Shown here: positions 1 to 19,884 of the stretch, piece by piece | Layout: each line of letters begins with the position of its first letter | Numbering within the stretch: position 1 is the stretch's first letter | Source of the DNA: Actinomyces weissii | GTDB lineage: Bacteria > Actinomycetota > Actinomycetes > Actinomycetales > Actinomycetaceae | Reading direction: 5' to 3' | Assembly: GCF_016598775.1 (NCBI RefSeq) | Contig: NZ_CP066802.1 | Location: 434,001 to 498,000 of the forward strand | Length of the DNA: 64,000 bases | Program-made: the position numbers and the translations under genes | Notes under the pieces: generated by a model | What the model saw: the letters and a program-made list of their open reading frames with translations, nothing else | Told to the model about the DNA's origin: nothing | Database searches by the model: none

Positions 1-230
1 GAGTTTGCTGTGTGTTTGCTGGTTGGGGTGTTTGGAGGGGGACTTTTTGGCTTGGTCTCGTTGGAAGTCGGTGGCTGGGGGTGGTTTTGGGGTGTCGGTG
101 GCGCTTGGCTTGATTGTGCCGAAAAGTGGGTATAGTGGGGGTGTGCTGGCCGGTCCTGTGGGGTGCTTGCGGGGCCAGTGGCGCTCTGGGTCCTGGAAGT
201 GGCGTGATTGCAAGGCTTCTGGGGGCCAGG
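1..230 (+). promoter_or_regulatory. CRISPR leader with candidate promoter
   Basis: This GT-rich, A/C-poor stretch lies directly before the first intact repeat. The degenerate repeats are at the opposite end of the array, so this side is the leader. A -10-like TATAGT is at 131-136, with TTGATT at 110-115 at a short 15-nt spacing. Transcription from here would run rightward through the array. The promoter call is tentative because the spacing is not optimal and the true leader may begin before the window. No coding gene is supported here. Confidence 0.5.
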
Positions 231-3200
231 GTCAGGAAGCACCACGCACCTGTAGGTGCATTAAGACAATGGGAGAGACTTTCTCCACTGTGCGAACTGT
301 CACGTCAGGAAGCACCACGCACCTGTAGGTGCATTAAGACCTGGCTGGCCGTAAGGCCACCCTGGATAATACGCGTCAGGAAGCACCACGCACCTGTAGG
401 TGCATTAAGACTGACCGTCCATCGGCCGTTGTCGCTGACGACGACAGTCAGGAAGCACCACGCACCTGTAGGTGCATTAAGACCTGGCTGGCCGTAAGGC
501 CACCCTGGATAATACGCGTCAGGAAGCACCACGCACCTGTAGGTGCATTAAGACAAGGCCAATTTGGCCTCCAACTTCTGTGCCTTCTCGTCAGGAAGCA
601 CCACGCACCTGTAGGTGCATTAAGACAAGCAGGCGGCGAACCGCTCGTCCCCCTTGATGAGTCAGGAAGCACCACGCACCTGTAGGTGCATTAAGACTTT
701 TCTAATTATCTCTCATGTTTCACTCGCTGTCCTGTCAGGAAGCACCACGCACCTGTAGGTGTATTAAGACTAGAAGGGTTAGTGATCATCGATTCTTATG
801 TATCGAGTCAGGAAGCACCACGCACCTGTAGGTGCATTAAGACAATAGGCGATCCCCTAGGAACTCTCCTCGCAGTCCCGTCAGGAAGCACCACGCACCT
901 GTAGGTGCATTAAGACTTTGCTCTCCGAACTCTTCGGCAATCTTCTGTCGCGTCAGGAAGCACCACGCACCTGTAGGTGCATTAAGACCGTGTCGCCGGG
1001 TTCGGGTGATTCGACCACATTGTCCGTCAGGAAGCACCACGCACCTGTAGGTGCATTAAGACGGGCCAGAAGAGCCCCTAAGGGGGAAAGGAACACCATG
1101 TCAGGAAGCACCACGCACCTGTAGGTGCATTAAGACCAAGCTCCGATCCGAAGTTCGGGACCAGAAGGGCCGTCAGGAAGCACCACGCACCTGTAGGTGC
1201 ATTAAGACTCTTCTGTCTGGAAAACCCTAGCTCGGCTAGGTTCTCGTCAGGAAGCACCACGCACCTGTAGGTGCATTAAGACCCAGGACGGCGTTGAGGT
1301 CCTTTATAAGACCGCTGTCAGGAAGCACCACGCACCTGTAGGTGCATTAAGACCCAGGACGGCGTTGAGGTCCTTTATAAGACCGCTGTCAGGAAGCACC
1401 ACGCACCTGTAGGTGCATTAAGACTCCACCCGCCGGGACCGGGCGATGGGGCACGCCCGTCAGGAAGCACCACGCACCTGTAGGTGCATTAAGACCGCTC
1501 CTACGCCCCTTTCTTGCCACCCCTATTCTTGTCAGGAAGCACCACGCACCTGTAGGTGCATTAAGACGAGTACCAGTTCTATTGTCATATCTTCCGCCTC
1601 TCGTCAGGAAGCACCACGCACCTTTAGGTGCATTAAGACCTCAACTCCCGGACAGCAATGTAGATAAGCCATAAGTCAGGAAGCACCACGCACCTGTAGG
1701 TGCATTAAGACACCACAGGTAGGACGATAACGGCTGTTGCCAGAGCGGGTCAGGAAGCACCACGCACCTGTAGGTGCATTAAGACCGCTCCTACGCCCCT
1801 TTCTTGCCACCCCTATTCTTGTCAGGAAGCACCACGCACCTGTAGGTGCATTAAGACACTTCTGGAAGTTCTCACAGGCCTCCCGGAAGGAGGCGTCAGG
1901 AAGCACCACGCACCTGTAGGTGCATTAAGACTCCTTCCTAAGCGCCTTCTCGATGGTGTTTCGGAGTGTCAGGAAGCACCACGCACCTGTAGGTGCATTA
2001 AGACGATGGCAAACTCCCTGGCTCCGGCCTCATAGGCGTCAGGAAGCACCACGCACCTGTAGGTGCATTAAGACGACCGGTCAAGCGCCGCACTGATCAC
2101 GGAGCTGTGTCAGGAAGCACCACGCACCTGTAGGTGCATTAAGACCGGTGGATCGACCACTTCCCATTCTTCAGGTTGATCGTCAGGAAGCACCACGCAC
2201 CTGTAGGTGCATTAAGACAACGAGGCGATCACGCCTGCGCTGCCGGTGCTGTGTCAGGAAGCACCACGCACCTGTAGGTGCATTAAGACACCAAGGAGAA
2301 GCGCCTGGCGGTCCTTGAGGCGCGTCAGGAAGCACCACGCACCTGTAGGTGCGTTAAGACCTTCTGGTGATCTTCTTCACTTAGCGCATATAACGTCAGG
2401 AAGCACCACGCACCTGTAGGTGCATTAAGACCTGACGCCTCGCACTCGACCTCGGTCGGACACGCACGTCAGGAAGCACCACGCACCTGTAGGTGCATTA
2501 AGACTTGGAAGAGGCCCTCGAGAAACATAGCTTCCCCTGGTCAGGAAGCACCACGCACCTGTAGGTGCATTAAGACGCGTCATGCTTGGGGTCTGTACCT
2601 TCGACGACAAGTCAGGAAGCACCACGCACCTGTAGGTGCATTAAGACATGACTTTTCACGGGCATCACGTTCCTCGAGCAACCGTCAGGAAGCACCACGC
2701 ACCTGTAGGTGCATTAAGACTCATGATCTCCACCCCGTTCGCGGTGGCGGCCTCGTCAGGAAGCACCACGCACCTGTAGGTGCATTAAGACATACACCTG
2801 ACCGCTTACCACAATCTCGATGACCCAAGTCAGGAAGCACCACGCACCTGTAGGTGCATTAAGACAGCAGCTGGGCGACCCAAAGGTCTCTTTCGTCAGC
2901 CGGTCAGGAAGCACCACGCACCTGTAGGTGCATTAAGACCATCTTGAATACCCTGGCCACCTCGGCCAGGGTCAGGTCAGGAAGCACCACGCACCTGTAG
3001 GTGCATTAAGACGTGTCAGTAGACATTGCGAAGTCCTTTCTGTGGTTGGGTCAGGAAGCACCACGCACCTGTAGGTGCATTAAGACGGCAGCCAGGCTGG
3101 CACACCGCGACTGGTCAGCTCGGTCAGGAAGCACCACACACCTGTAGGTGCATTAAGACATGCGGCACATGATGTGCCCGCAGATGTCTTCGACAGTCAG

Positions 3201-3521
3201 GAAGCACCACGCACCTGTAGGTGCATTAAGACTGGCTTTCGGGTCAGAAGAGTGCGGCTGCTAGCGTGTCAGGAAGCACCATGCACCTGTAGGTGCATTA
3301 AGACAAAACGTTGAGCATTGTGGTTCCTTTCGTAGTGGGGGCAGGAAGCGCCACGCACCTGTAGGTGCATTAAGACAAGCGGCTTGTTATCACAAACCCA
3401 ATTTGCTACGAGTCAGGAAGTATCACGCACCTGTAGGTGCATTAAGACCTCCGGAGAGCCGTATGTAGTCGCTACTCTTGGGGTGTCAGGAAGCACCACG
3501 CACCTGTAGGTGCATTATGAT
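231..3521 (+). CRISPR. CRISPR array, 46 repeats of 37 bp and 45 spacers of about 34-37 bp
   Basis: The repeat starts GTCAGGAAGCACCACGCACC and ends TGCATTAAGAC. Its core GCACCTGTAGGTGC is palindromic and would form a crRNA hairpin, and the 3' eight bases ATTAAGAC fit the 5' handle of type III crRNAs. I counted repeat starts from 231 to 3485 at about 71-74 bp intervals. Repeats starting at 3123, 3268, 3340, 3412 and 3485 carry substitutions, marking the trailer end and plus-strand transcription. Isolated variants also occur in the repeats at 734, 1603 and 2324. Three spacers occur twice: 341-374 with 484-517, 1283-1316 with 1354-1387, and 1496-1530 with 1786-1820. The array faces the minus-strand cas operon, which ends 129 bp beyond it. 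Confidence 0.98.
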
Positions 3522-3649: not shown

Positions 3650-6163
3650 CTAATCTGCGGACGTCGCCAAAGGAGGCAGGTCGTACTTACGAGAAAGCTG
3701 TTTCCCGTTCAGCTTGTGGTTCACCCTGTTTTCCTCCCGCTCCTTGAACCAGTTGATGATCGGAGACAGGTCGCCGTTCGCGGCCTCGCCGGCCCCAGGG
3801 TAGGACACGGTGCCAGAGCGCCACCCAAAAGCGGCCCGCTGGAAGGCACGCACCGGCAGAGACTTCTCAAAGTCAGAGGGCAGGTCAGAGAGCGTGCTCT
3901 CCAGCTCAGCGTCAAGGCTCTCACCATCCAGCCCCAGGCAAGAAGACAGGCTCTGGTAACCCTGGCCAATAGTCTTACTGCTACGGCGCACCACCCTGGT
4001 GGCCCGCACCTCGACGGCCCCCAGGCCCAGCGGCTTGCCCAGGCCAATGTGGTGGTAGCCGATCCCCTGGCCGCCATCGGTGTGGCGCTCCGACTGGGGA
4101 ACCAGTCGCTCCGGGCTCAGCAGCCAGAGCAGCACCGCTAGCTCGGCAGGCTCCAGGCCATCAAAGTGAATACGAGTCCGGAACCTTGCCCCAGGTGCCA
4201 GATAGGAGCCGATTACGGTATCCGCGGAACCGGAGTCCCCGTTAAGGTTACTCACTCCCGGGACGGCGGCAATCTGCTTATCCCGTAGCAGCCGGTGCGT
4301 CGGGTAGACCTTGCGGATCAAGGTCTGCCCCCTCTGGAAGGTATGCGCGCGCGTAGTCTTCTCGTCTAAGGCGCCGCCATCCGTGCGGCGCAGGTAAGGG
4401 AAACCGGTAGAGGGCTTCGGGCTCGCCAGCGTGGGCAGCAGCCAGCCGTTGCTTCCAGAGGCAGGAAGCTGTAAGAAACTCTCACTGCCACCCGAAGGCT
4501 CAGGCTCCACTGCCTCAATGCGCACACGTCCTCTAAGTGCGGCGCCCTGGTCCTGGCCGTCCATCTTGCCGTCGGCCACAAACCCCCAAAGCCTGTCACC
4601 AGGAGAAGCCTCCTCCATGCGCAAGGCAGGGCGGGTACGTGCCTCCTCGGCCAGAACGGCGGGAGCGACGGCGGTACCGTCCGCTCGCCTGCCTACCTGG
4701 GAGGGGCTGAGTTCTGTGATGCGGCCCTGCCTCACCGTCGCGAACAAAGGTATGCCACGGTTGTGCTTGGCTAGCTTGCTGGCAAGGTCCTCCAAGAATG
4801 AGAGTATCTGCTCGCGGCCGGCGTTGCGGCCGGGAGCGCCGTACTTTCCCTTGTCTAGGACATCCACCAGCCAGGTGCTGGGGTCGGACGACTTCCGGGT
4901 GTTGGAGTCGCTGCTCGCTCCACAAGCGCGCCGACGCAGCTCCTGCTGCTCCAGGGTGCGGATATTCGCCAGGTAGGAGTGCAGGACCTCCACCAGGTTG
5001 TTCAGGACGCCATCGTCAACAGGCAGGAAAGTTGATTGCTTGTTTTTGTCGAAGAACACGAACTCCGAGTGCTTGGTGTCAATCAGCGACTGTCCGGCCT
5101 GCGGAGTCGTGCGTACCACGATGCCGCGCAGGCCGAACTGTTTCTCCGCGTTGTCCTTTTTCGAACGGCAGAAGAACGCATTTCCCACCTTGTTGACTAT
5201 CGCGCGCTTCTGTTTGCTATAGAAATGCTCCAGCTCAACCGAGAAGTCAATCTCCTTGAAGTGTGGGGTGACGGCGCGTAGTTCTGTCAGCCTTTCCTCT
5301 GCGCGCGCCCTATCCCCTCTCTGCTTGCTTCGGTCCGCTGAGCCGGTGAAGACATACATACCGTCGGCCTCCAGGAAGTTGGCCGCCACATACAGGCTGT
5401 CAGGAAGGACCGCAGCGCACACGTACCTAGGGTTGTTCCACTCGTGTGGGTTCCTGGGCTTAGGATTCATTCCCAGCATCACCCGGGCGCGCAGACCGCT
5501 CCCGTCCTCCCTGGGTACCAGCAGCACCGGGTACAGGAAGGTGGACTCCTGGGTGGTGCGCCGGTGGGTCAGCACATGGTCGTGCTCCCGGAACACCCGC
5601 ATACGGGAGGCGGTCACCGCCTCATAGGCGCTGGAGAGCATCCCCTTGAGCGAGGTCGCCGGAATAGTGGCATCCTCCCAGCTGCGTGCCCCCAGCGGGT
5701 CGCCGCTGCGCGAGGCCACCACCACCTGGCGAAGCCCTGCCGATCCAGCTGCCTGCTGTCCCGGAACGGTAGGCGTCGCCACCTTGATGGATACGTCGAT
5801 ATGCCCTGAGACTCGGCCCGGCGCCAGGTGGTCCAGCGTGGAAGGCCCCCGGTCCCGGTAGAACGAGCTACTGCCTTTCTTTTTGTCTAGGCGCACCGCC
5901 GGGACGCCGTTGTAGGCGTGGTGCCACTCGCCACCTCCGTGCGAACCTGGCTTGGGGGTCGCACCCGCGCCGTCTTTGGGGGCATGAGGCTTCGGCACCG
6001 CCTTACTCGCTGCCGGGGTCGGTTTCTCCGCCGCTGCCGTCTTCGCTGCGGACGCTGGTGGCGGTACCTGTACCTGTGGTGCTACCGGTTGAGGCCTAGG
6101 TGACTCCCCGTTACTGGGCCGAACACTCTTGGAGCTCCGCGGCCGCTTGTTCTTCGCCATCAT
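3650..6163 (-). CDS. RAMP protein of the TIGR03986 / Cas7-insertion type (type III-D effector subunit)
   Basis: This 837-residue protein is the last gene of the effector operon. The first 100 or so residues are low-complexity (Ala, Pro, Lys). A RAMP signature IPATSLKGMLSSAYE lies near residues 167-181, matching the P-x-(S/T)SLKG(M)LR pattern of Cas7-like proteins, and the C-terminal half contains the TIGR03986-like stretch DRLWGFVADGK. In the Synechocystis III-Dv complex the equivalent Cas7 carries a large insertion and caps the backbone; the same role is inferred here. The ATG at 6163 overlaps the upstream stop codon (ATGA), so the two genes are translationally coupled. A second ATG follows immediately. 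The family assignment rests on motif, size and operon position. Confidence 0.8.
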   Translation of the reverse strand: MMAKNKRPRSSKSVRPSNGESPRPQPVAPQVQVPPPASAAKTAAAEKPTPAASKAVPKPHAPKDGAGATPKPGSHGGGEWHHAYNGVPAVRLDKKKGSSSFYRDRGPSTLDHLAPGRVSGHIDVSIKVATPTVPGQQAAGSAGLRQVVVASRSGDPLGARSWEDATIPATSLKGMLSSAYEAVTASRMRVFREHDHVLTHRRTTQESTFLYPVLLVPREDGSGLRARVMLGMNPKPRNPHEWNNPRYVCAAVLPDSLYVAANFLEADGMYVFTGSADRSKQRGDRARAEERLTELRAVTPHFKEIDFSVELEHFYSKQKRAIVNKVGNAFFCRSKKDNAEKQFGLRGIVVRTTPQAGQSLIDTKHSEFVFFDKNKQSTFLPVDDGVLNNLVEVLHSYLANIRTLEQQELRRRACGASSDSNTRKSSDPSTWLVDVLDKGKYGAPGRNAGREQILSFLEDLASKLAKHNRGIPLFATVRQGRITELSPSQVGRRADGTAVAPAVLAEEARTRPALRMEEASPGDRLWGFVADGKMDGQDQGAALRGRVRIEAVEPEPSGGSESFLQLPASGSNGWLLPTLASPKPSTGFPYLRRTDGGALDEKTTRAHTFQRGQTLIRKVYPTHRLLRDKQIAAVPGVSNLNGDSGSADTVIGSYLAPGARFRTRIHFDGLEPAELAVLLWLLSPERLVPQSERHTDGGQGIGYHHIGLGKPLGLGAVEVRATRVVRRSSKTIGQGYQSLSSCLGLDGESLDAELESTLSDLPSDFEKSLPVRAFQRAAFGWRSGTVSYPGAGEAANGDLSPIINWFKEREENRVNHKLNGKQLSRKYDLPPLATSAD

Positions 6164-6702
6164 GCGCCCCACTTTCCGGTCATGAGCTCGTCCACGAAAA
6201 CGGTGTTCCCGTACTCGTGCTCCTGGAACACCTCGATACTGTCCATCTTTTGAGGCGACTTGCTGGGCAGCGTCGCCCCGTGCTGCAGGTAGGCGTTCGG
6301 GCGGGACCAGCAGGTCGTCGTCCCCGCCCCGCCGTCGCCACCCGCAGCCTCCCGTAACGTCACCTGCACGGCGCCCGTGCCGTTCAGCCACCGCCACTCA
6401 CAGGCCAGCAGACCACCGTCAGCGGCCTCTAGGCCCGCCGTGACCCGCCACAGCCGCAGCTCGTAGACCGTACCCAGCGGCACCTCCCGCAGCGCGCCGT
6501 CGGCCAGGTACCGCAAGGCAGGGGCGGCCCCCAGGACCACCTCAGTCACCGCGAAGGCCTGCGACGTCGTATAAGCCACCCCCTGGAGCGCGCCCCCAGG
6601 ACCCGCGACCCGCCCCAGCAGGCCCACCAGGTCATCCTGCTCAAAGGACACGACCTCCAGGCAGGCCCCCTCTAAGGGCCGCCTGCTCCACGACTTAGCC
6701 AT
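6160..6702 (-). CDS. csx19: Csx19-like small subunit of the type III-D effector
   Basis: This 180-residue protein lies between the double-Cas7 and Cas7-insertion genes, the place Csx19 (TIGR03984) takes in type III-D and III-Dv operons. The central stretch with TVYELRLWR and ACEWRWLNG resembles the Leu-x-E-x-R-x-F/W core I associate with that family, but no catalytic motif is visible. The start ATG at 6702 overlaps the end of the upstream gene by 8 bp and its own stop overlaps the next start, so the gene is embedded in one coupled transcript. Context supports the name more strongly than sequence does. Confidence 0.62.
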   Translation of the reverse strand: MAKSWSRRPLEGACLEVVSFEQDDLVGLLGRVAGPGGALQGVAYTTSQAFAVTEVVLGAAPALRYLADGALREVPLGTVYELRLWRVTAGLEAADGGLLACEWRWLNGTGAVQVTLREAAGGDGGAGTTTCWSRPNAYLQHGATLPSKSPQKMDSIEVFQEHEYGNTVFVDELMTGKWGA

Positions 6703-8488
6703 GCTGCTCCTCCTGCGCCGTCTCCACCAGGTAGGCCGACCAGCCGGTCGCCTCCCTAGCGCCGTCATTAGCGGTGATCGTCTTGTTGACCTCCCGCAGC
6801 CTGGCCAGCAGCTCCCGCGCCACCGCCTGGCCCGGCCGCTGCGCCTCGGCGGCGGCCCCTAGGTGCCATTCAGCCGACCCCAGCCCCAGCCACTCCAGAC
6901 CCTGCACATGCAGCGCCCGGACCTCCACCTGCCCCAGGCCCCGGGTGCCCTTGCCGCCCAGGGGAAGAGTTCCGGTGGCCAGCTCCGCCAGCACCAGCCC
7001 CAGCAGGCAGAAAGCCGCCTTCGCCCGGTCAGCGCCCCTGGCCTCGCTGCCCAGCGCCTGCGCACCAGCACGCTGCAACCAGCTGGCGTCCAGCTCCAGG
7101 ACGATCTTGTTCCAGGACTTGTCATAGAGCTCCTCGCAGAACAAGGCGCCCTCGGCCACGCCCCCGGTCCAGCGGTCGCAGGCATTGTGGGTGACCCGGC
7201 GCGGCCGGTCGCGCAGCTGCGCAGTCAGGGTGTCCAGCACGCGCAGGGCCCCGCGCCGCTCCGTGGTGCCGAACAGGTCCCGCACCAGCGCCGGGTCATC
7301 CGCCAGCTGCTCATGGACGCCCAGGCCCTCGCCCTCCCAGGAGCGCAGGTGCGGCCCAGGCGAGTTCGCCAGCACGGTGCGCCCAATTCGTGAGGCCCGG
7401 CCACGCAGCGCCCCCCGCACCGAGCTGCCCGGCAGCACCAGGGGGCCGTCGTCGCCGCCCGAGTCCCGCAGAGGCATAGCTGGCACTGCATCGCAGCCCT
7501 CCTGGGGGCCGCTCCTGCGCTCCTGCGCCCGATCTACTTTCTCCTGCTTGCTCAGGCCCGGATCGGCCACCAGGATTCCCGTGGGGCTGTCCCACTCGAT
7601 CTCGATCCTGGTCCGCGCCGGGGCCGCACAGTCCACGAGGGAGGGCAGCTCAGCGGCCTGCGGCTTCTCAGCCAGGAAGGCCCGCAGGCCCGCCCGGGAG
7701 GTGGGCTCAAAGGCACGCAGCTCGTAGGGGTGATCCGCATCCAGCACCACCCGGCCCCAGCCCGCGCCCTGCCGCCCGCCAAAGCAGATCCGCTCCGCCT
7801 GGAACAGCCCGACGATCAGCGCCAGCACCTGCTCCACCTGCGCGGTGGTGGCCATCGGCGGCACCTGCTCCGCCCCAGCCCGCACCGGGGCGTCCCCCTC
7901 CGCTGACGACGCCGGAGCCGTTTCCGTAGCAGCCTCCGCGGTCACCACCAGGGTCAGGCTGTGGCCGCGGGGCAGGAACTCGTGCGCGAACAAGGCGCCG
8001 TCCCCCACGGTCCCCCAACGCCGGTCGATGGCGTTGCCCATCCGCTGCGGCAGCCCCGGCGCCTCCCCGGCCCCCGCCGTCTGCTGGGCGCCAGCCTGCG
8101 CTGCCTGCCCCTGCTGCGATTCCTTTACCGCCGTCTGCGGCAGCTTGACAGTGCGGAAGGTCAGGGCGCTGGCCCGCAGCGGCGCACTGTTCTGCGGCGC
8201 GCCCCGTTGGTCGCCCCACAGGCTGCGCTCCGCCTCCCGCAGCTGGCGCCCCAGCGCGTCGCCCTCCGGAAGCTCAGCCAGGTACTGCGCGCAGGCCGCC
8301 CGCACCGCCCCCTTCACGGAGCGGCCGGTCAGCACCGGCTCGCCGTGGGCGTCACGCGCGAACCGCCTGGCCACCACCTCCCGCTCAACGCCCTCACGGC
8401 TAGGGTCCGCCACCTCGTCCACCCCGCCGGAGTGCAGCGGTGAGTCGGTCCTCAGGTGGATGGTGAGCTTGTAACGCTTGCGGCTCAT
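6695..8488 (-). CDS. Double-Cas7 (Cas7-2x-like) RAMP protein
   Basis: This 597-residue protein contains two successive Cas7/RAMP modules. The first has SPLHSGG and then PVLTGRSVKGAVR (residues about 51-63). The second has PLVLPGSSVRGALR (about 349-362), the classic Gly-rich RAMP loop. In the first module the place of the Csm3 catalytic Asp (six residues before the RD that precedes the loop) appears to be Ala. The second module has an Asp in CDAVPAMPLRD that could serve. If so, only one of the two modules would cut target RNA; that needs a structural alignment. The start overlaps the previous stop by 4 bp (ATGA). It corresponds to Cas7-2x of the III-Dv complex. Confidence 0.8.
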   Translation of the reverse strand: MSRKRYKLTIHLRTDSPLHSGGVDEVADPSREGVEREVVARRFARDAHGEPVLTGRSVKGAVRAACAQYLAELPEGDALGRQLREAERSLWGDQRGAPQNSAPLRASALTFRTVKLPQTAVKESQQGQAAQAGAQQTAGAGEAPGLPQRMGNAIDRRWGTVGDGALFAHEFLPRGHSLTLVVTAEAATETAPASSAEGDAPVRAGAEQVPPMATTAQVEQVLALIVGLFQAERICFGGRQGAGWGRVVLDADHPYELRAFEPTSRAGLRAFLAEKPQAAELPSLVDCAAPARTRIEIEWDSPTGILVADPGLSKQEKVDRAQERRSGPQEGCDAVPAMPLRDSGGDDGPLVLPGSSVRGALRGRASRIGRTVLANSPGPHLRSWEGEGLGVHEQLADDPALVRDLFGTTERRGALRVLDTLTAQLRDRPRRVTHNACDRWTGGVAEGALFCEELYDKSWNKIVLELDASWLQRAGAQALGSEARGADRAKAAFCLLGLVLAELATGTLPLGGKGTRGLGQVEVRALHVQGLEWLGLGSAEWHLGAAAEAQRPGQAVARELLARLREVNKTITANDGAREATGWSAYLVETAQEEQHG

Positions 8489-10545
8489 GACTGCGCCTCC
8501 TGGGCGGTGTGGATGAAGTCGTGACGGCGCAGCGTGCGCAGGTTGAAGGCCTCCTGCTCCAGCAGGGGGTGCCCGACCACGAAACGCCCAAAGCCCTGCG
8601 CCGTCAGGCTGCCCACGCCGGTGAGGGCCAGCCGTGTCAACGCCGTCGTGGCCTCCGGGGGTACCTCCACACGCAGCACCGAACCTGCTTGGACCGCCAT
8701 GCGTGTGGCCCGGGGCTGCGAGCTGGCCGGGGACCAGGTGTCCACCCGCCGGTGCCGGATACCTGCCCGGTACCGGTCCGCCTCGCCCTCCGCCAGGCGC
8801 AGGGCTGCGCCCGCACGCCTAAACGCCCCCAGCAGGTCCGTCAGGGAGCCGCCCGGACCCAGCGCGGCCGAGCGCGCCAGCACGTCCGCGGTGAACCACA
8901 GCGTGGTCGTGCCCGCCTGGACCTGCGGCGCCGTCACCTCCACCAGCGGCGTGAAGCAGCAGCGGGTCTGGCCATAGGCCCCGCTCAGACGGCGCAGCCC
9001 CAGCCGCGCCTCCACGCTCCTACCAGCGCCCGCCATCCTGGTGAGCAGCTGGCGGACCCCCGGCCGCTCCGCCAGGTCCTTGGACAAGGTGACTGTGGCC
9101 TCCAGGCGCATGCCCGCAGGCAGGGCCCGCACCAGGAACAGGGAGCCGTCCTTGGTGGCGCCCGTCTGCGCGCTGTGGGCCGTGCCCTGGCGGCCGGTCA
9201 GTGCCGGAACGCCCCAGGCCCCGCTGACCGGCTGCGCCTGCTGCGTCTGGTCCCCCGGCTGAGCCTGCCCCGGCTGCGCCTCCTGCTGGCCCGGCATCGC
9301 CACGCCCGGGAACACGAAGCCGCTGCGCATGGGGGACTGCACCTCCGGGGGCGGGGCGGCGAGCAGCCGGTTGCTCACCTCCAGCCACCACTGCCCCGGC
9401 TGGTCCGCCTTGGGGCGGGTGAGCACCAGCGGCGTGGGCAGCCCCCGGCAGCCCTGCACCACCGGCAGGGCGTCAGAGACCAGCAGCCTGCCGCTCACGA
9501 CGGCGTCGCGCACCACCGGGTCATCCGGCAGCGCCCGCCGCAGCAGCTGGTGGACCCAGGGCAGCACCACGGTCCCCCGCAGGAAGTCCAGGGAACGCAC
9601 CTCGTTGGAGAAAGGCACCTCGTAGGAGACCAGCGGGGTGAGCAGGTCGATGCGCAGGGTGGTCGTGCACCACTGCGAGGCTGACCCGGCACCGTCCCCC
9701 GCCGGGACCCTCGCCGGGGCCACCCCACCCTGGCCGGGGCGCGGAACCTCCGGGCTGTCCCACGGCGCCGCAGGCGTGGGGACGCTGGGCTCCAGCTGGA
9801 TGTCGCCCGCCGTCGCCGTCGGCTCCAGGCTGTCCAGGGCCTGGGCGCACCACCGCCGCACCTCCTGCTTGTGGGTGGCCGCGTCCGCCAGGTTCGGCTG
9901 CTCCGGCCCTGACCCCTGCGACGGCGGGGCCGCCTGCCCGATCAGTACGTCGCACACGCCGTCGCCGTCGGAACGGTTGGAGCCGATGCCCCGGACCAGC
10001 AGGCCCGCCAGGGAGAGCAGCAGGCGGGCGGCGTCACGCTGGGCCTCGGTCCACCTGAGCGCGTGGCCCTGGGCGTCCACGTCCACCAGGGTCACCGTGC
10101 CCTGGAGCTGGCAGCCTCCCGCCCGCTCGAAGACCCGCAGGAAGTTCTCGCGGGCGGTTCCCGTCTGCTCGTCGATGGACAGGGAGATGACCTCATGCAC
10201 CGGCACCCGCTGGCCCACCGGGACGCAGGCGTCCGAGAAGATCACGTGGCTGTGCCGGGGGCGGGCGGCGGCCTCCCGGGTGTCGTCCGGCGCCGGGCCG
10301 AAAAGCTGGTCGGCAAAGCTGTTCCAGGGGCCGGAGGGGCCGTCGTCCAGGGCGGCGGCCGCCTGCCGGGCCTGGGCCCGCACCACGCCGGTCAGCACCG
10401 TGCCGCGGACCACCGGCTGGCCAGCGGTATCCGTCTCGATGACGGAGTCGACGCCGCCCACTACGCCGGTGCCGGTGGACACGCCCCAGTCGGAGTGGAA
10501 GACGAGGGTGAGGGGGAAGGAGAGGGAGGTGGTCTCGTTGCTCAT
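8485..10545 (-). CDS. Cas7-Csx10(Cas5) fusion protein of the type III-D effector
   Basis: This 686-residue protein appears to fuse two RAMP modules. Residues 1-260 look like Csm3/Cas7: GGVDSVIETD followed by PVVRGTVLTG (44-53). Asp33 aligns with the Csm3 catalytic Asp found in the IDSPVIKD context, so target RNA cleavage is probably retained. From about residue 295 the sequence resembles Csx10, the Cas5-like subunit of type III-D: TLRIDLLTPL, then DGSLFLVRALPAG, then a C-terminal GVGSLTAQGFGRFVVG. This matches the Cas7-Cas5-Cas11 fusion of the III-Dv complex, although I cannot confirm a separate Cas11 part. The ATG at 10545 overlaps the cas10 stop (ATGA). Any further upstream start would lie inside cas10. 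Confidence 0.78.
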   Translation of the reverse strand: MSNETTSLSFPLTLVFHSDWGVSTGTGVVGGVDSVIETDTAGQPVVRGTVLTGVVRAQARQAAAALDDGPSGPWNSFADQLFGPAPDDTREAAARPRHSHVIFSDACVPVGQRVPVHEVISLSIDEQTGTARENFLRVFERAGGCQLQGTVTLVDVDAQGHALRWTEAQRDAARLLLSLAGLLVRGIGSNRSDGDGVCDVLIGQAAPPSQGSGPEQPNLADAATHKQEVRRWCAQALDSLEPTATAGDIQLEPSVPTPAAPWDSPEVPRPGQGGVAPARVPAGDGAGSASQWCTTTLRIDLLTPLVSYEVPFSNEVRSLDFLRGTVVLPWVHQLLRRALPDDPVVRDAVVSGRLLVSDALPVVQGCRGLPTPLVLTRPKADQPGQWWLEVSNRLLAAPPPEVQSPMRSGFVFPGVAMPGQQEAQPGQAQPGDQTQQAQPVSGAWGVPALTGRQGTAHSAQTGATKDGSLFLVRALPAGMRLEATVTLSKDLAERPGVRQLLTRMAGAGRSVEARLGLRRLSGAYGQTRCCFTPLVEVTAPQVQAGTTTLWFTADVLARSAALGPGGSLTDLLGAFRRAGAALRLAEGEADRYRAGIRHRRVDTWSPASSQPRATRMAVQAGSVLRVEVPPEATTALTRLALTGVGSLTAQGFGRFVVGHPLLEQEAFNLRTLRRHDFIHTAQEAQS

Positions 10546-12584
10546 GACTGGGCCTCTGTGCTGGTCCGGGTGTTCCTTGACGCGGACTGAACTGGTGGGG
10601 CCAGCTTCGTGGCCTCGCTGAGGAAGGAGTCCGGCAGCAGCTCGCCGAGCTCCAGCAGGTCGTAGAGCGTGTGCGGACCGCCGAGCTCGGTGTCCAGGTT
10701 GGCGCGGACCTCCTTCTTGGCGTCCTCCCACTGGGCGTCCACCTGCCTGAGGGTCTCGGCCTGCTCGCTCTGGCTGCCGCTCTGCTCCGCGTCCGACAGC
10801 AGCTTGCGGATACGGGCGGCCCGGGTGTGCGGGAAGGGCAGGATCTGGTCCGCTTGGTCCTGCGCGTCCCGGAAGCCTTTGAATCGGGCGGTGCGACGGC
10901 AGACGGAGTCCCAGGTCGCGTACTGCGGGCCGTCCTCCGGGGTGCTGGCGCCGGTGGGGCTGTGCTCAGCGGGGCTGCCTGTGGCGGGGCTGGGCTCAGC
11001 GGGGCTGCCTGTGGCTGGCTCCGGCTGCAGGCGGAAGGGCCGGGTGGTGAAGCCCTTGTAGCTGGCCAGCAGCTCGGCAGGTTCCAGCACGGTGGTGTCA
11101 AACAGCACGTGGTAGTCCAGGGTGGAGCATGTGGGCTGCTGGGCCTTGCCCACGCCCTTGGCCCGCTTGACCAGCCGCTCGGCCAGGTCATAGGCCACGT
11201 GGAAGGGGAAGTTGCGGCGCACAATGGCCACCCCGGCCGCCGCCGTCATCGGGCCAGGGCCGGTCACCGACTCCTGGCCGACGGCGTGCAGGTGCCGCAG
11301 GAGGACGTCCGCGCCGGTGTTCTGCTCGAAGTGCTTCAGGAAGCTGGCAGCGAAAGGCAGGGCGTAGTCGCCGCTGGTGATGACGGTGACGTCGTCTCCG
11401 CCCAGGATCACCGGTACCACCGGCGCGACCTGGAAGCCTGCGGCCGGGTCCGCAGGATTGGCGGAGGCCCAGCGGGCTACATCGGCCCAGGCCTGCGCGA
11501 AGGCGGCGGTGACCGCCTGGTCGAGACGCTGGCTGACGGCCAGTACAAAGCACCTGGTAGCGTCCGAGTCCTTCCGCTCGCAGCCAGTGGCGGTCTTGAA
11601 GTCCTCGGGGGCGACGCGCTGCATGGCCAGGTCCAGGTTCAGCATGATCGCGCCCACGCCGTTGCCGTCAATATGGATGACCGCGACCTTGGACAGCGGT
11701 GCATCCTGAGCCCCCTGGAGCTCGTCCGGGACCGGGGGCGCGGAGGGGTAGCGCTCGTCCTCAAAGCGCTTCTCCAAGTCCCGCAGGTCCTGGCTGCTGC
11801 CCTGAGCGTCCTGCTCAGGGACGGTGCTGCTGGGGTTAAAGGCCTGGGTGAGCTCCTGCTTCAGGGCGTTGGCGAGCTCGGTGGGGTTGAGCGCCAGCTT
11901 GCTGCCCTTCTTCAGCTCTGCCAGCAGCTCGGACTGGCCGCTGGCCAGACCCGCTAGGCGGGTGCGGGACTGGTAGGCCTGGTAGCGCTTGACCCGGGAA
12001 GGCAGGGAATGGGGAGTGGCTTTGTCGTCATTAGCCTCATCCCGAATGTCCAGGGGCGGGGCGGCAGGTAGGTTGGAGTCCTTGGCCTGGGCCAGGAAAG
12101 GCATCTGGCTGAAACGGGCCTCTGCGGGCGGACGGTTGAGCGCGTACCTGCTCGCCTCGGCATGGACCTCCTCCAGCAGCTGCCGGTCCACCGTCTTCTT
12201 GTCACCCATGCTGATGTAGACGCCGGAGAGGTCCAGACCGGGAGCCTGCGCCAGAACGGTGCGGGTGACATGACCGATCACCTGCTGGGCCTGTTCCTCG
12301 GTCTCCACCATGAAGATGACCTTGCCGGAGGAGCGAGAGACCCACTGTCGGGTAAGCAGTGAGGCTGGGGTGCTGCTGTCCGCCTTGTCGGCTGCCGAGC
12401 CGGTGGGGCAGAGCTCGGGGCGCTCCTCGGGCCATCCCTTGTCCGCCCCGCAGGAACGTACGGCGGTGGTGACCCAATCCTTCAGCCGTGAGAGCTGGGC
12501 GGAGGCACCGATGTTCTCTCGTAGGCGGGGCGAGGAGAAGATGTAACGCTGGTTCCCGTTGGTCTCAAGCATCACGAGCTGCAT
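10542..12584 (-). CDS. cas10: Cas10 family protein with GGDD cyclase site, no HD domain
   Basis: This 680-residue first gene of the operon is the large subunit. Two palm regions are visible: VIHIDGNGVGAI (from residue 302) and ILGGDDVTVITSG with an intact GGDD at about 395-398. GGDD is the site that makes cyclic oligoadenylates when target RNA is bound. The protein begins directly with palm-like sequence (MQLVMLETNGNQRYIF), so the N-terminal HD nuclease of many Cas10 proteins is absent. Signalling rather than ssDNA cutting is therefore the expected output, which fits the divergent CARF-like/HEPN gene. A GAGAGGA ribosome site precedes the ATG. The region between residues 520 and 560 contains a short imperfect AEPSPATGSP-type repeat, an odd low-complexity insertion. 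Confidence 0.9.
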   Translation of the reverse strand: MQLVMLETNGNQRYIFSSPRLRENIGASAQLSRLKDWVTTAVRSCGADKGWPEERPELCPTGSAADKADSSTPASLLTRQWVSRSSGKVIFMVETEEQAQQVIGHVTRTVLAQAPGLDLSGVYISMGDKKTVDRQLLEEVHAEASRYALNRPPAEARFSQMPFLAQAKDSNLPAAPPLDIRDEANDDKATPHSLPSRVKRYQAYQSRTRLAGLASGQSELLAELKKGSKLALNPTELANALKQELTQAFNPSSTVPEQDAQGSSQDLRDLEKRFEDERYPSAPPVPDELQGAQDAPLSKVAVIHIDGNGVGAIMLNLDLAMQRVAPEDFKTATGCERKDSDATRCFVLAVSQRLDQAVTAAFAQAWADVARWASANPADPAAGFQVAPVVPVILGGDDVTVITSGDYALPFAASFLKHFEQNTGADVLLRHLHAVGQESVTGPGPMTAAAGVAIVRRNFPFHVAYDLAERLVKRAKGVGKAQQPTCSTLDYHVLFDTTVLEPAELLASYKGFTTRPFRLQPEPATGSPAEPSPATGSPAEHSPTGASTPEDGPQYATWDSVCRRTARFKGFRDAQDQADQILPFPHTRAARIRKLLSDAEQSGSQSEQAETLRQVDAQWEDAKKEVRANLDTELGGPHTLYDLLELGELLPDSFLSEATKLAPPVQSASRNTRTSTEAQS

Positions 12585-12778
12585 CGGGCGTCCTCTCAGG
12601 TGGGCTGGTGGTGGCAGTCTGCCACTTGCTTGCCCGGCGCGCGCGATAACTGTGAAGCAGGTTCTACACTGGCCCGCAAAACCCTTTCAGGGGGCTTGCA
12701 AGGACTAAGGGCTATCGCTGCGCGGTGGGCGCCCATCCATAGGCTTTAGCTCATGATGAAGTGGGAGGCAAGGAAGCC
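12585..12778. promoter_or_regulatory. Divergent promoter region between cas10 and the CARF/HEPN gene, with palindrome
   Basis: This 194-bp gap must hold promoters for both the effector operon (left) and the ancillary genes (right). It contains a perfect inverted repeat GTGGCAG-T-CTGCCAC at 12611-12625, only 27 bp from the cas10 start, placed where an operator could control the effector operon. TACACT at about 12665 is -10-like for the rightward gene, without a clear -35. No regulator gene is visible beside it. Confidence 0.45.
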
Positions 12779-15229
12779 GTGACTGTTGTTATAAGTGCCG
12801 TGGGGGCCGGGGACCTGGGGATCGACATCGTCGAGATGGATCCCAGGGAGAGGCAAGAGGCGGATGTGGAGCCTCGGAAGCGGCTGAAGGACAGTGTTGC
12901 TGCCCCGGATACCGAGGCGGTCGCCAAAATGCTCTTGGAGGGGGCGGGAGACGGTCGGTTCCCCGTGCCGCCGGTGACGCTGCTGCTGAACTCTATAGAA
13001 GCCTCTGGTCTGGCAGGAGGGGGTGCGGTAAGGGTGCTGCTGCTCGACAGCAAGAGTGGGAACGCAAGGACTCCCACCGATTCTGTGGCTAAACGCCTTG
13101 AGGAAGCCTATGGGTTGTCAGACGTGCAGAAACAGCTTGAATCTAGGTACGGCTTCAAGGTGGAAGTTGAGACGATTGAAGCCGATCTGCGTGAGAAGGT
13201 TGGCGTAGAGGCGCTGGAGAAAAGAGTACGAGAACTGGGTGAGGCCGAGTATGTGGTAAACGGCATCTCCGGGGCCTCCATGATCGTGTTCGCAGCAATG
13301 GGGTTGCTAGATGAGCTTGCCTGCAGCTGGCGCCTGGCGGTGGCTCCAGGGGAGGGCAAGGAGGCGGCGCATCTGCTTGAGGTGACCTCCCACAAGGAAG
13401 CCGCTTTCTACTGGCTGCGCTCTATGGGGTACCTGGAGCAGGCGCAACGCCTGGCCGAGAGGCTGGGTGCTGGTGCCCGGCCTGTCGACGGGACGCACCG
13501 GGAGATTGTCGCTCTGTCTCGTCGACTCAGAGAGGATCCCGAGCACTTGAACGCCCAGGACCTGGGCCGCCTGCTCGCCCTGGACATGGCGCGAGCCGAC
13601 GGCACGGCGGGCCTGCTGGTGCGTCCCTGGGTGGAGAAGGCCTACCGCCAGATGCTTGCGCAAGAGGGTGCGGGTGAGAGTCGAAATGAGAGTGCTGATG
13701 GGAGCGAAAGAGAGGATGCGGAGAGGGGTGAAAGAGTTAGTCTCTTCAGGAGGGGGGCTCCTTTAGGGGCAGCGATAAGGGCGGCTTCCGAGCAGGTGCG
13801 GTCGCAAGGTCCGGATTGTCCCGAAAGTGCCAGGTGGCTGGCAGGCCAAAGCAGACTTAATGAGATCGGCAAGAAGGCCGTACATGATCTGGGGGAGCCG
13901 CGGCTGAGTGAGGTCAGGTACGTGCTACAGGACCTCGGCCTGGGGCGGGAGCTCCCAGACTGGGTGTCTCGACCGGGGGAGCGGCCGGTTCTCTACATTG
14001 TGCCCTGCGGTACCATGCAGCGGGGTGAACCGGTTCCGCAACGAGTGCTCCTTTCTCCAGTTCCACCCGCTCTAAAGGCGGCGGTTCCAGGAGGACTGCT
14101 CAGTGACGGCCTGCCGCTGGAGGTGGAGTTCTTGCTCCTCCACTCGGAGGACCCAAAGTCTAAGAAGGTCGCGTTAGAGAACGCGGCTGGCGGCATGCTC
14201 GCCGCACTCCACGGAGAGTGGGCGCGTATGTCTCCAATATCGGTTGATTCTATAACTTACGGGGGTGCGGCCACGTCGGAGTACCTGGCCACCCCGGATA
14301 TCATGGAAGCGGTGTCGGCGCAGGTCTCACTGGTTCTCCGGGCAAAGCGTCCGGCGGCGGTCGTGCTGGTGGGTACTGGCCAGAAGCCTGCTGTATACGG
14401 CGCTCTGCAGGCGGCGCAGAAGTGGTGCGCGGACCACGGTGCACCCCTGTTCCTGCAGACCTTCGTAGACGGCGACCGGGCGGCCCCCCAGTTCCACCGG
14501 GTCGCCCTCCACCGGGACACCCGGAAAGCCTTGCTGGAGGTCGCCAAGGAGAGCCTGGCCCGCCTGGACCTGCTCAGTGCGGTGCGCGTGCTAGAGGCAG
14601 GGGACGGGCAGATGCATGATCTGGCGGAACGCTGTAGCAAACTCCGGCAGAAGCTGTTGCATGCCGCCAACAACGACGACGCTCCAGATGAAGGTGCCGC
14701 AGTCCTCATGGACCTGCTGGAAGTGGTGGCGCATCTGTGGGAGTCCGCCACCGACGAGCTGGTCAAGATGCGCCTCATGGTCGTCGTCGCAGAAGCTCTG
14801 GACTTTAAGAGCAATAATCGCACCCTCCTGGTGCGTCAGATTGAGTATACTGAAAGAGTAGGGTGGCGGCAGCGTCGGTTTGGCTCCACGGGTGGTGGTG
14901 CGTGTGCGGGCAATATAGAGGCTAGTCACCGTGACCTCCTAGCCCTCTTGTACCAAGTGCGCAACAACCTGGTAGTCACCCATGGGGGTGAGGCGTCGCG
15001 GAAAGCCTTTGAGGCGGCCGCGTGCTGCCCGTTTAAGAACGGGCCGACTGATGGTCGCCCTAACCCCTTCTTCTATGACTATGAGGAATGGTCCTACCCT
15101 ACGGTGCTTAGGCTGACCAAGAAGAAACTGCTTGAGGGTGCCGCAGAACAATCCATCAACCTGACGGCCTCCACCTGGAAGCAGGACTTTGACAAGCTCT
15201 GCCAGGACATTGAGACCAAGCTCCAGTAA
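12779..15229 (+). CDS. CARF-like / HEPN ribonuclease (Csm6/Csx1-like ancillary effector)
   Basis: This 816-residue protein probably starts at GTG 12779 (MTVVISAVGAG), which follows a GGGAGG..AGGA ribosome site; a GTG 18 bp upstream is the alternative. The C-terminal HEPN motif R-x6-H is clear: RNNLVVTH at residues 728-735 has the polar residue after Arg typical of active HEPN RNases. Two Rossmann-like regions precede it: one N-terminal (TVVISAVG, then NGISGASMIVFAAM) and one central (VLYIVPCGTM, then VVLVGTGQKPAVYGAL). I read these as two CARF-like sensor domains. It is about twice the size of Csm6. The inferred role is cyclic-oligoadenylate-activated RNA degradation downstream of Cas10. The HEPN motif is seen; the ligand is inferred. 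Confidence 0.78.
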   Translation: MTVVISAVGAGDLGIDIVEMDPRERQEADVEPRKRLKDSVAAPDTEAVAKMLLEGAGDGRFPVPPVTLLLNSIEASGLAGGGAVRVLLLDSKSGNARTPTDSVAKRLEEAYGLSDVQKQLESRYGFKVEVETIEADLREKVGVEALEKRVRELGEAEYVVNGISGASMIVFAAMGLLDELACSWRLAVAPGEGKEAAHLLEVTSHKEAAFYWLRSMGYLEQAQRLAERLGAGARPVDGTHREIVALSRRLREDPEHLNAQDLGRLLALDMARADGTAGLLVRPWVEKAYRQMLAQEGAGESRNESADGSEREDAERGERVSLFRRGAPLGAAIRAASEQVRSQGPDCPESARWLAGQSRLNEIGKKAVHDLGEPRLSEVRYVLQDLGLGRELPDWVSRPGERPVLYIVPCGTMQRGEPVPQRVLLSPVPPALKAAVPGGLLSDGLPLEVEFLLLHSEDPKSKKVALENAAGGMLAALHGEWARMSPISVDSITYGGAATSEYLATPDIMEAVSAQVSLVLRAKRPAAVVLVGTGQKPAVYGALQAAQKWCADHGAPLFLQTFVDGDRAAPQFHRVALHRDTRKALLEVAKESLARLDLLSAVRVLEAGDGQMHDLAERCSKLRQKLLHAANNDDAPDEGAAVLMDLLEVVAHLWESATDELVKMRLMVVVAEALDFKSNNRTLLVRQIEYTERVGWRQRRFGSTGGGACAGNIEASHRDLLALLYQVRNNLVVTHGGEASRKAFEAAACCPFKNGPTDGRPNPFFYDYEEWSYPTVLRLTKKKLLEGAAEQSINLTASTWKQDFDKLCQDIETKLQ

Positions 15230-15250
15230 CAGGTGTTAGCGAGCCAGAAA

Positions 15251-15838
15251 ATGTCATTCACGCTGAATAACCTCACGCCCCACCAGGTGGTGCTGGCCCT
15301 GGCGGACGGCACCGAGCTGCGCCTGCCACCCTCCGGCACCGTCCCCCGCCTGCTGCTCAGCCAAGGCAGTCGGCAGACCCTGCAGGTCAGTCGTCCACCC
15401 GTCCCAGGAGAGCCCGGGGAAGGAGCCCCGGGTGCCTCGGGCACCTCGGACGCCTCGGGCACCCCAGACACCCCGGACGCCCCGGATACCTCGGGCACCC
15501 CAGACACCTCGGGCACCTCAGACACCTCGGGCACCTCAGACACCTCGGGCACCTCAGACACCTCGGGCACCTCAGACACCCCGGACGCCCTGACCGTCGT
15601 GGCCACGGTGGAGCTCGCCGTCGGTGCTACCGTCACCGGCCTGGAGCCCCCGCTGCCCGCACCCTGCCCCGGCACGCTGTACGTCACCAGCCGCGTCGTC
15701 GCCGAGCACCACCCGGAGCGCACCGACCTGGTCTGGCCAGACGACCTGCAGCGCGACGCCGCCGGGCAGGTCACCTCCGCCCGCCGCCTGGCCAGCCTCC
15801 ACGCAGTGCAGCCCCAGGCCGCCCACCAGGAAGGATGA
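15251..15838 (+). CDS. Small beta-rich protein with Thr/Ser-Gly-Thr-Asp repeat linker, unknown function
   Basis: This 195-residue protein starts at ATG 15251, 21 bp after the CARF/HEPN gene. The N-terminal part ([18 protein letters not shown], then LRLPPSG) and the C-terminal part ([12 protein letters not shown]...RTDLVWPDD) together resemble a widespread small family starting NLTPHPV and containing PG-x-LYIVS, for which I know no function. A low-complexity linker built on TSGTSD units splits the two halves (about residues 60-112). The stop is 4 bp before the GTG of the next gene, whose ribosome site lies inside this gene, so the two are almost certainly co-expressed. A CRISPR-ancillary role is suggested only by location. 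Confidence 0.6.
15430..15585 (+). repeat. 18-bp tandem repeat inside the small beta-rich gene
   Basis: Units of the form CACCTCGGGCACCTCAGA are repeated in tandem, with the most perfect copies between about 15503 and 15577 and degenerate ones before. Each encodes a Thr-Ser-Gly-Thr-Ser-Asp block. All units are in frame, so copy number could vary without breaking the gene. Confidence 0.8.
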
Positions 15839-15842
15839 CCCC

Positions 15843-17366: not shown

Positions 17367-17666
17367 CGGCGTTGAGGCGTGCGCGGTTGCGCTGGGGGCC
17401 GACGGTGTCGCGGTGGCGGTGGCTGACGGTGGGCAGTGGCGCAGGCCGTGATCCTGGGTGGGGCCTAGGTGGCTGATGGTGGGGGGCCGGGACGATCTTG
17501 CGCGGCGGGCCGTGAGACTGCCGTGCCCCGCTAGGCTGGTTGTGGCCACACAGAATGCCCGTGCGATCGCGACCATGAAGCCGGGCCCCGCTAGGCCGGT
17601 TGTGGCACTCTGGTGGGGCCAGGGTGGCGCCGGACGGCGTCAGCCCGACCGGAAGGAGCCGACAGC
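17367..17666. other. Noncoding gap between CRISPR ancillary genes and hpt
   Basis: No gene is supported. The sequence CCCCGCTAGGC(T/C)GGTTGTGGC occurs twice (near 17526 and 17584), 57 bp apart, just upstream of hpt. This may be a duplicated promoter segment. An hpt ribosome site (GGAAGGAG) is at 17651. Confidence 0.4.
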
Positions 17667-19263: not shown

Positions 19264-19370
19264 CTACGACGGCTACCAGCCGGGCACGTCCTGGACGCGG
19301 CCGAGGTCGTGGTTGAGGTCGCAGCCACCTAGACCCGCCCCCGGCGTCGGGCTGTGCCCACCCTACCCTG

Positions 19371-19433
19371 ACTTGTGCATTTCGGCGCGAGTGGTGCGGT
19401 TTTCCGGCACCACTCGCGCCGAAATGCACAAGT
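19371..19433. repeat. Long palindrome, copy 2
   Basis: Arms of 27 bp (19371-19397 and 19407-19433) are perfectly complementary around a 9-nt loop (GGTTTTCCG). The stem is the longest of the family, and the arms match copies 1 and 3 except at the extended ends. It lies 107 bp after the AIM24-like gene. Confidence 0.88.
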
Positions 19434-19806: not shown

Positions 19807-19884
19807 AACCGATCAGCCGGGCGCCTGGGCGCCCCTGACTGGTGGGCTGGCGTCTTCTCCTGAAGGGTTGGCCCGGTGGGGGGC

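Follow-up and report, generated by a model that had tools for sequence, protein, structure and literature searches.

A III-Dv-type CRISPR-Cas effector operon without detectable Cas11 in Actinomyces weissii and other Actinomycetaceae

The effector operon and its assignment to III-D

We analyzed a stretch of 64,000 nucleotides (nt) from the Actinomyces weissii genome (RefSeq assembly GCF_016598775.1, contig NZ_CP066802.1, positions 434,001 to 498,000 of the forward strand), hereafter the window, which carries a type III locus of the CRISPR-Cas kind (clustered regularly interspaced short palindromic repeats and their associated proteins). An open reading frame (ORF) check of the window gives five overlapping minus-strand ORFs at 3650-12584, which constitute a III-Dv-type effector operon. 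The first-pass annotation, made from the sequence alone, had named them as Cas10 with GGDD, a Cas7-Csx10 fusion, a double Cas7, a Csx19-like protein and a TIGR03986/Cas7-insertion protein, and the ORFs and the PDB and PADLOC matches agree with it. The PDB values below are from phmmer, and lengths are in amino acids (aa).

12584-10542, minus strand: Cas10, 680 aa, GGDD; PDB 8s9t_C, E 1.7e-45; PADLOC Cas10, 2.1e-112
10545-8485, minus strand: Cas7-Cas5(Csx10) fusion, 686 aa from ATG; PDB 8s9t_A, E 8.8e-29
8488-6695, minus strand: Cas7-2x (double Cas7), 597 aa; PDB 8s9t_D, E 2.4e-16
6702-6160, minus strand: Csx19, 180 aa; PADLOC Csx19, E 4.2e-48
6163-3650, minus strand: Cas7-insertion (TIGR03986 family), kind B, 837 aa; PDB 8s9t_E, E 1.2e-12

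The genes overlap by 4 nt at the Cas10/Cas7-Cas5, Cas7-Cas5/Cas7-2x and Csx19/Cas7-insertion junctions and by 8 nt at Cas7-2x/Csx19, and their order is that of the III-Dv operon on Synechocystis pSYSA. For four of the five subunits the best solved match is the corresponding Synechocystis III-Dv chain; Csx19, a frequent member of III-D systems, is identified by profile only and has neither a PDB nor an NCBIfam match. Cas10 contains a palm/cyclase domain, which by sequence places the system in type III, and a Pfam scan of this protein gave no HD-domain match. The Cas5 region of the fusion aligns with 8s9t_A, being thus of the Csx10 type that marks III-D, and a III-Dv-like architecture of the operon is supported.

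The profile check proposed in the first-pass annotation gave a mixed outcome. The PADLOC models for Cas10 and Csx19 match strongly, whereas Cas7-insertion scores 150.2 bits (E 1.4e-43) against TIGR03986, under the cut-off of 161.35, and Cas7-Cas5 only 20.2 bits against the NCBIfam Csx10 model TIGR02674, whose cut-off is 177.3. Such sub-cut-off scores, to which those against the Cmr2 models belong, fit a diverged lineage. Weak matches to Cmr2, Cmr3, Cmr4 and Csm3 models might also suggest that a III-A, III-B or III-C system has been misread as III-D. We find this hardly credible, since III-D chains come out as the best solved matches of four subunits in sequence comparison and of both modelled subunits in fold comparison, and since Csx19 and TIGR03986 proteins are present. 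The modelled Cas7-Cas5 has 8s9v_A as its top Foldseek match (E 7e-27), so that the 686-residue protein does show a Csx10-like fold in a modest model (mean predicted local distance difference test score, pLDDT, 59.6; global template modelling score, TM, 0.36; root-mean-square deviation, rmsd, 17 Å), and the modelled Cas7-2x has 8s9x_D (E 3e-24; pLDDT 64.9).

III-Dv is used as an intermediate between multi-subunit type III complexes and single-protein III-E. III-Dv complexes are characterized by a single copy of every subunit on a 37-nt CRISPR RNA and by cyclic oligoadenylate synthesis that depends on the target. Foldseek also returned the Cas7-11 of III-E, a single polypeptide without Cas10 and Cas5, as a fold relative of the window Cas7 proteins. 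A further solved protein, the 1235-aa TIGR03986 protein PDB 9wxh_D, matches both Cas7-2x and Cas7-insertion and is perhaps another III-D fusion form.

Lack of detectable Cas11 and state of the cleavage sites

Relatives of the operon were collected at several taxonomic levels. A Cas7-Cas5 relative was found in 17 of the 37 genomes of the genus examined and in none of 22 others of the order. A Cas10 relative occurs in 34 of 213 Actinomycetaceae genomes, two of these matches being weak; at class level, 19 of 394 sampled genomes have one, counting the source genome. Against plasmids, tblastn of Cas7-Cas5 gave no match and the Cas10 search matched pSYSA. The compared set comprises 34 family stretches with 35 operons in all, L037 holding two, and 11 stretches from outside the family, each 16-20 kb in size except one of 12.7 kb and annotated with profiles built from the window proteins. 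A contig scan with the single protein gave four loci, of which three were dropped as duplicates because their contigs match those of L061, L062 and L070 in length, and the set leaves out seven weak class-level Cas10 matches (E 4e-5 to 3e-4) and the weak family matches G088 and G097. Homologue searches found 3,863 sequences for Cas7-Cas5 and 2,636 for Cas7-2x (E <= 0.001), with the 120 closest listed for each.

The III-Dv complex of Synechocystis sp. PCC 6803 (PDB 8s9t, 8s9u, 8s9v and 8s9x; PMC11026444) shares with the window the five subunits and their order, the Cas7-Cas5 fusion, the double Cas7, the insertion in the last Cas7 and GGDD. The window differs in having no Cas11 tail, in keeping the catalytic Asp at one of three sites, and in carrying RT-Cas1 rather than Cas1 alone. 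The earlier claim of the same subunit set and order as in Synechocystis accordingly stands for the order and the five subunits, but it overlooked both the absent Cas11 part and the loss of most cleavage Asp residues.

In Synechocystis the fusion continues after Cas5 into Cas11, and its match to the window protein stops at chain residue 596 of 791. Only 1 aa follows Cas5 in the window fusion, which contains no stretch matching Cas11 of the Synechocystis Cas7-Cas5-Cas11. The same condition prevails throughout the family: 1-30 aa follow Cas5 in all 35 Actinomycetaceae operons, 167-266 aa in 10 of the 11 actinobacterial loci from other families, and 191-193 aa in both cyanobacterial loci. For L054, where the fusion is split in two ORFs, 62 aa follow the first part and 9 the second, and the locus is counted by the second. 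The best 120 of the 3,863 Cas7-Cas5 homologues are 642-726 aa long. At the level of sequence, a Cas11-free fusion in all 35 Actinomycetaceae operons is a new observation.

The ten non-family loci with a Cas11-bearing fusion also carry the double Cas7 and Cas7-insertion in the same order; a Csx19 profile built from the window found no Csx19 in these loci, nor in Synechocystis itself. The eleventh locus, L074 of genome G485, has 22 aa after Cas5 and is thus a Cas11-less case outside Actinomycetaceae; the same genome also holds a Cas11-bearing locus on another contig. III-A2 is not known to be a Csx10/Csx19 system. It is likewise described as lacking an identifiable Cas11 (PMC12669027).

No match of a Cas11-tail profile in the family stretches went below E 1.3, and in the whole source genome the profile gave none at E 0.1, nor at E 1 in another run. 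The same profile recovered five of five non-family genomes not used in building it (E 4e-26 to 3e-32). Two candidates for a displaced Cas11 were rejected. Transfer into Cas10 is not borne out by the length after GGDD, which is 237-382 aa in the family versus 237-399 aa in Cas11-bearing loci, and Crn4/Unk01 is a published ring nuclease, with no copy seen near 18 of the 35 operons.

The cleavage sites were read against Synechocystis, where D26 of Cas7-Cas5-Cas11 and D33 and D246 of Cas7-2x are each needed for one cut, as judged from D-to-A mutants (PMC11026444). Two of the sites use arginines R678, R706, R769 and R773 of Cas7-Cas5-Cas11, and the third uses H487 and R490 of Cas10 (PMC11026444). 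All four arginines fall in the Cas11 part of the fusion. We infer which Cas7 domain carries each numbered site; on this assignment, the Cas7-2x sites appear to be completed by the Cas11 arginines.

At the corresponding positions the window has D33 in Cas7-Cas5 (versus D26; the Cas7a position), A40 in Cas7-2x (versus D33; Cas7-2x.1) and P336 (versus D246; Cas7-2x.2); aligning profile against profile (E 5.5e-55) gives the same column pairing. The canonical Asp is therefore kept at one of three sites, the Cas10-proximal one in Cas7-Cas5. Across the 35 family operons, Cas7-2x.1 is P in 22, A in 9 and otherwise V, R, L or S, and never D; Cas7-2x.2 is mostly P (21), with D in one (L035); and Cas7a carries D in 22, the window among them, and otherwise N (6), H (5), R (1) or T (1). 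The main alignment does not include L054, which is split, or Cas7-2x proteins above 900 aa; these were read separately. The last-domain residues of L032, L037 (one copy), L054, L074, L078 and L079 come from the main alignment and the separate readings. In L074, the residues are H and V (the latter in one alignment only) in Cas7-2x and D at Cas7a. Among 12 Cas11-bearing loci, D occurs at Cas7-2x.1 in 9, at Cas7-2x.2 in 8 and at Cas7a in 10.

The closest homologues are nearly uniform. Cas7a is D in 119 of the best 120 of 3,863 Cas7-Cas5 sequences, with one unread, and in the best 120 of 2,636 Cas7-2x sequences (window included) Cas7-2x.1 is A in all 120 and Cas7-2x.2 is P in 118, with two unread. 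The D/A/P pattern is therefore a fixed condition and no accident of a single genome. All 34 family Cas10 ORFs covering the region have GGDD. Of 36 aligned family rows, one of them a gap, 29 retain R490.

The Cas7 subunits vary in number and kind among the family operons. In L061, L062, L067 and L070, which belong to the Schaalia/Pauljensenia group, the place of Cas7-2x is taken by a triple Cas7 (941-1079 aa, stop to stop), and in its middle domain the canonical Asp, read by eye, seems to be missing too. Cas7-insertion occurs in two kinds, for which a tree of 16 sequences was made, A with about 720-800 aa and B with about 790-890 aa (stop to stop). By best profile, the window, L034, L058, L063, L068 and L071 have B only; two subunits of different kind stand in tandem behind Csx19 in L029, L030, L033, L039, L055 and L066, B running off the stretch end in L030, L055 and L066; L064 has two of one kind; and the other family operons have A only, the second operon of L037 being cut off.

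A signalling-centred reading and its alternatives

Three genes divergent from Cas10 encode the putative accessory proteins.

12761-15229, plus strand: Csm6-2 (CARF-HEPN-CARF-HEPN), 822 aa; PDB 9w3u, E 3.6e-116; PADLOC CARF_m11--CARF_HEPNnew_CARF
15233-15838, plus strand: Crn4-like (Unk_01), 201 aa; PADLOC Unk_01, 1.8e-33; TxH motif
15843-17366, plus strand: CorA-type membrane effector; PADLOC CorA, E 1.4e-132 on the longer ORF 15624-17366, the GTG start at 15843 being a guess

The 9w3u match spans residues 8-752 of the 822 of Csm6-2, and R734-x6-H741, close to the C-terminus, is taken as the motif of the second HEPN domain; the protein has the features by which Csm6-2 is recognized, namely CARF-HEPN-CARF-HEPN in a single chain of about 800 aa and R(x4-6)H in the second HEPN domain. 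Crn4 proteins are marked by homology to Unk01 and by conserved T, H and R, of which the Unk_01 profile match and the TxH motif were seen here. In the Crn4-like gene a head-to-tail 9-bp repeat at 15408-15614 encodes a linker rich in TSDTSG. Fused accessory ORFs were seen elsewhere, CorA-Csm6-2 in L030 and L039 and Csm6-2-Crn4 in L036. CorA systems of the SAM-AMP type are marked by NrN, DEDD or a SAM-AMP lyase nearby. General scans of the eight window proteins gave none of these families; no search was aimed at them, and the scans covered genes up to 17366.

Synechocystis has Csm6 and Csx1 (PMC11026444) in place of this accessory set, which is the one reported for Actinomyces III-D loci, namely Csm6-2, CorA and Crn4/Unk01 (PMC11229360, PMC13187428, PMC12830947). 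The window very probably belongs to that published group, and neither the actinobacterial occurrence nor the accessory set is therefore new. The first-pass view that such systems are known mainly from cyanobacteria does not do justice to their distribution, given that Actinomyces III-D with Csm6-2/CorA is in print (PMC11229360) and that 10 of the 11 fetched non-family loci described above are Cas11-bearing actinobacterial ones. Csm6-2 has been noted in 16 III-D loci, along with a divergent Actinomyces CorA clade associated with it and a suggested ligand, cyclic hexaadenylate (cA6) (PMC11229360). The selective activator of Csm6-2 from Actinomyces procaprae is cyclic pentaadenylate (cA5) (PMC13187428), Unk01 is a ring nuclease renamed Crn4 (PMC12830947), and the ligand of CorA in III-D is called unclear (PMC12669027). 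We found no description of the effector architecture, the absence of Cas11 or the Cas7-site state of Actinomyces III-D loci in the available parts of the literature searched, which excluded subscription papers, bioRxiv and supplements.

From the subunit identity, the gene order, the residue states and the lack of any Cas11 match at the locus and genome-wide, all of which are observed directly, we infer the activity as follows. Cas10, Cas7-Cas5, Cas7-2x, Csx19 and Cas7-insertion, presumably in one copy each, would form an RNA-sensing complex guided by CRISPR RNA. Binding of a foreign transcript would activate the GGDD cyclase of Cas10, and the product, by analogy cA5 (or cA6), would activate Csm6-2, which is an RNase, and perhaps CorA, a membrane protein, while Crn4 and Csm6-2 itself would remove the messenger. 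With both Cas7-2x sites lacking Asp, cleavage would be reduced to the Cas10-proximal Cas7-Cas5 site. The D26 site appears to be cut fastest in Synechocystis, where release of the 3' target part accompanies the return of Cas10 to its resting form (PMC11026444). A single cut at the Cas10-proximal site may thus release the 3' part of the target and switch Cas10 off, making the complex an alarm with a timer; members without the last Asp would need to destroy the messenger to stop the signal. We favor, with some confidence, a III-Dv-type complex without Cas11 that signals via Cas10 and cuts target RNA at most once, being more an alarm than a cutter.

Several observations weigh against this interpretation. 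The Cas11-tail profile gave two marginal matches in 39 relatives' genomes (G020, E 0.04 over 34 residues; G041, E 0.02), and it misses the C-terminal Csx10 tails of split III-D outgroups, because of which a strongly diverged Cas11 could escape detection. L077 and L078 bear Cas11 and have nonetheless lost both Cas7-2x Asps, so that these residues can be lost while Cas11 remains; in L071 a D lies one residue ahead of the aligned first Cas7-2x position. In the window Cas7-2x, a loop near the first site carries a D24 that all 28 aligned close homologues share, and the loop of the second domain has D/E in many rows; either might stand in for the lost Asp. The Cas10 H487 position has H in none and A in 20 of the 36 aligned family rows, as opposed to H in 9 of 11 non-family rows. 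Since 13 of the 35 family operons have no D at the third site, one kept cut is no rule of the clade. A Crn4-like gene lies near 15 of the 22 operons that keep the Cas7a D and near 2 of the 13 that have lost it, a distribution that is the reverse of expectation and therefore speaks against ring nucleases as the off-switch in members without the last Asp, although a more distant Crn4 beyond the 16-20 kb stretches would escape. The structural models are also modest, the best TM by query being 0.38 for Cas7-Cas5 and 0.53 for Cas7-2x, with rmsd of 9-20 Å across III-Dv chains.

Part of this evidence would suit an ordinary three-cut III-Dv complex, in which a Cas11 of diverged sequence is encoded at another place in the genome and the lost Asps are made up for by a different acidic residue, e.g. 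the invariant D24 of Cas7-2x. The blindness of the profile to distant split-Csx10 tails lends it room, and so do Cas1 matches at two further places of the genome, by which other Cas proteins may exist in trans. We nevertheless consider it rather unlikely: the profile that recovers all five control genomes finds no Cas11 in the source genome, D33A and D246A each disrupt the corresponding cut in Synechocystis (PMC11026444), and the two Cas7-2x positions are A in 120/120 and P in 118/118 readable sequences among the best 120 homologues.

Conversely, the complex might be a pure sensor that never cuts its target, the signal being ended by ring nucleases alone. The N, H, R or T at the remaining site in 13 of 35 family operons and the replacement of Cas10 H487 in the family would agree with this, as would the presence in the window of a Crn4-like gene beside Csm6-2, the latter being self-limiting in A. 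procaprae (PMC13187428). However, the Asp is kept in the window and in 119/119 readable sequences of the best 120 Cas7-Cas5 homologues, which argues for retained function there, and Crn4-like genes were seen near only two of the 13 operons without the last Asp. A complex that never cuts thus seems improbable to us.

The history of the lineage is consistent with our preferred reading of an alarm with at most one cut. The Cas10 tree was rooted with six split III-D loci (L083-L088, from four cyanobacteria, Photobacterium and Persicobacter), in which the order is Cas10, Cas7, Csx10, Cas7-2x, a small protein in the Csx19 position and Cas7-insertion, the roles of unlabelled genes being assigned by position and profile. 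Unlike in the window, their Cas7 and Csx10 are unfused, Csx10 (478-548 aa) has a longer C-terminal part, and Asps are present where readable: reading by eye gave D at Cas7a in 5, Cas7-2x.1 in 3 and Cas7-2x.2 in 4, the other sites being unreadable. The fused clade (support 97) consists of two sister groups, one of 35 family sequences and L074 without Cas11 (support 100), the other of 12 Cas11-bearing cyanobacterial and actinobacterial sequences (98). The 35 family sequences of the tree do not fully coincide with the 35 operons: the tree omits the truncated Cas10 of L024 and includes the partial second Cas10 of L032, and L037 counts twice among the operons. The possible new lineage suggested by the annotation therefore takes shape as a clade of Actinomycetaceae Cas10s, with the reservation that one outside member, L074, falls inside it.

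A single loss of Cas11 in the no-Cas11 group is the simpler reading because the outgroup Csx10 is also long, its C-terminal part being Cas11-like to the eye only. Loss of both Cas7-2x Asps maps to the branch of the Cas11 loss, except for L035 with its D at one position, and loss at the third site is scattered and later. Because both losses lie on one branch, they give no statistical proof of causation. We tentatively picture a stepwise dismantling in a signal-dedicated Actinomycetaceae III-Dv lineage, which may be somewhat less probable than not: Cas11 and both Cas7-2x sites would have been lost first and the last site later in several branches, with the cyclase motif kept in every readable Cas10, after which the filament would have been free to vary, to a triple Cas7 in the Schaalia group and to tandem Cas7-insertion subunits in Actinomyces. 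If true, such a lineage would mean that type III immunity can do without Cas11 and without cleaving its target at several sites.

A common natural lineage with III-Dv architecture and the cyclase motif, minus Cas11 and two or three cutting sites, offers a direct test of the roles of Cas11 and target cleavage. It lets one ask whether signalling can be shut off without cutting, and whether a complex with one cut or none is still protective. It also provides an effector-side description for the kind of Actinomyces locus behind the characterized cA5-activated Csm6-2 and the ring nuclease Crn4.

Arrays, adaptation genes and surroundings

The operon is flanked by a CRISPR array, which is convergent with it, and further Cas genes lie just to the left of the window.

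1-230, plus strand: leader of CRISPR array 2, nearly identical, as compared by eye, to the leader of array 1 outside the window
231-3521, plus strand: CRISPR array 2, with 46 repeats, each of 37 nt and with ATTAAGAC at its end, and 45 spacers of 33-37 nt

Forty-two of the repeats were called by script; four more, with one mismatch each, were read by eye within four long 'spacers', and the final repeat is degenerate. Three spacers are present twice (numbers 2/4, 14/15 and 17/20), leaving 42 distinct ones. Searches for targets gave no match for array 2 against phages and plasmids, nor for array 1 against phages, and five exact 24-mers, representing 5 of the 42 distinct array 2 spacers, had no match in IMG/VR. 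In the coordinates of stretch L002, the region to the left holds Cas6 (15316-16458), the second array, RT-Cas1 (17338-19674; RVT_1, 1.4e-22; Cas1, 3.6e-78) and Cas2 (19665-19952).

The loss of a domain and of active-site residues could in principle reflect a decaying, functionless locus. This is very improbable and largely refuted by conservation: all eight window genes, i.e. the operon and the three accessory genes, have open reading frames, GGDD persists in every spanning family Cas10 ORF, the array holds 45 spacers, RT-Cas1, Cas2 and Cas6 give full-length domain matches, and Cas7-2x has its 2,636 homologues at E <= 0.001.

The host genome is a single contig of 2.56 Mb, and the two further Cas1 matches lie at 99822-100658 and 738938-739558, perhaps marking two other CRISPR-Cas systems. 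Beyond the accessory genes, window positions 18323-20255 hold direct repeats of two sizes, one of 108 nt in three copies (75-100% alike) and one of 189 nt in two (92%).

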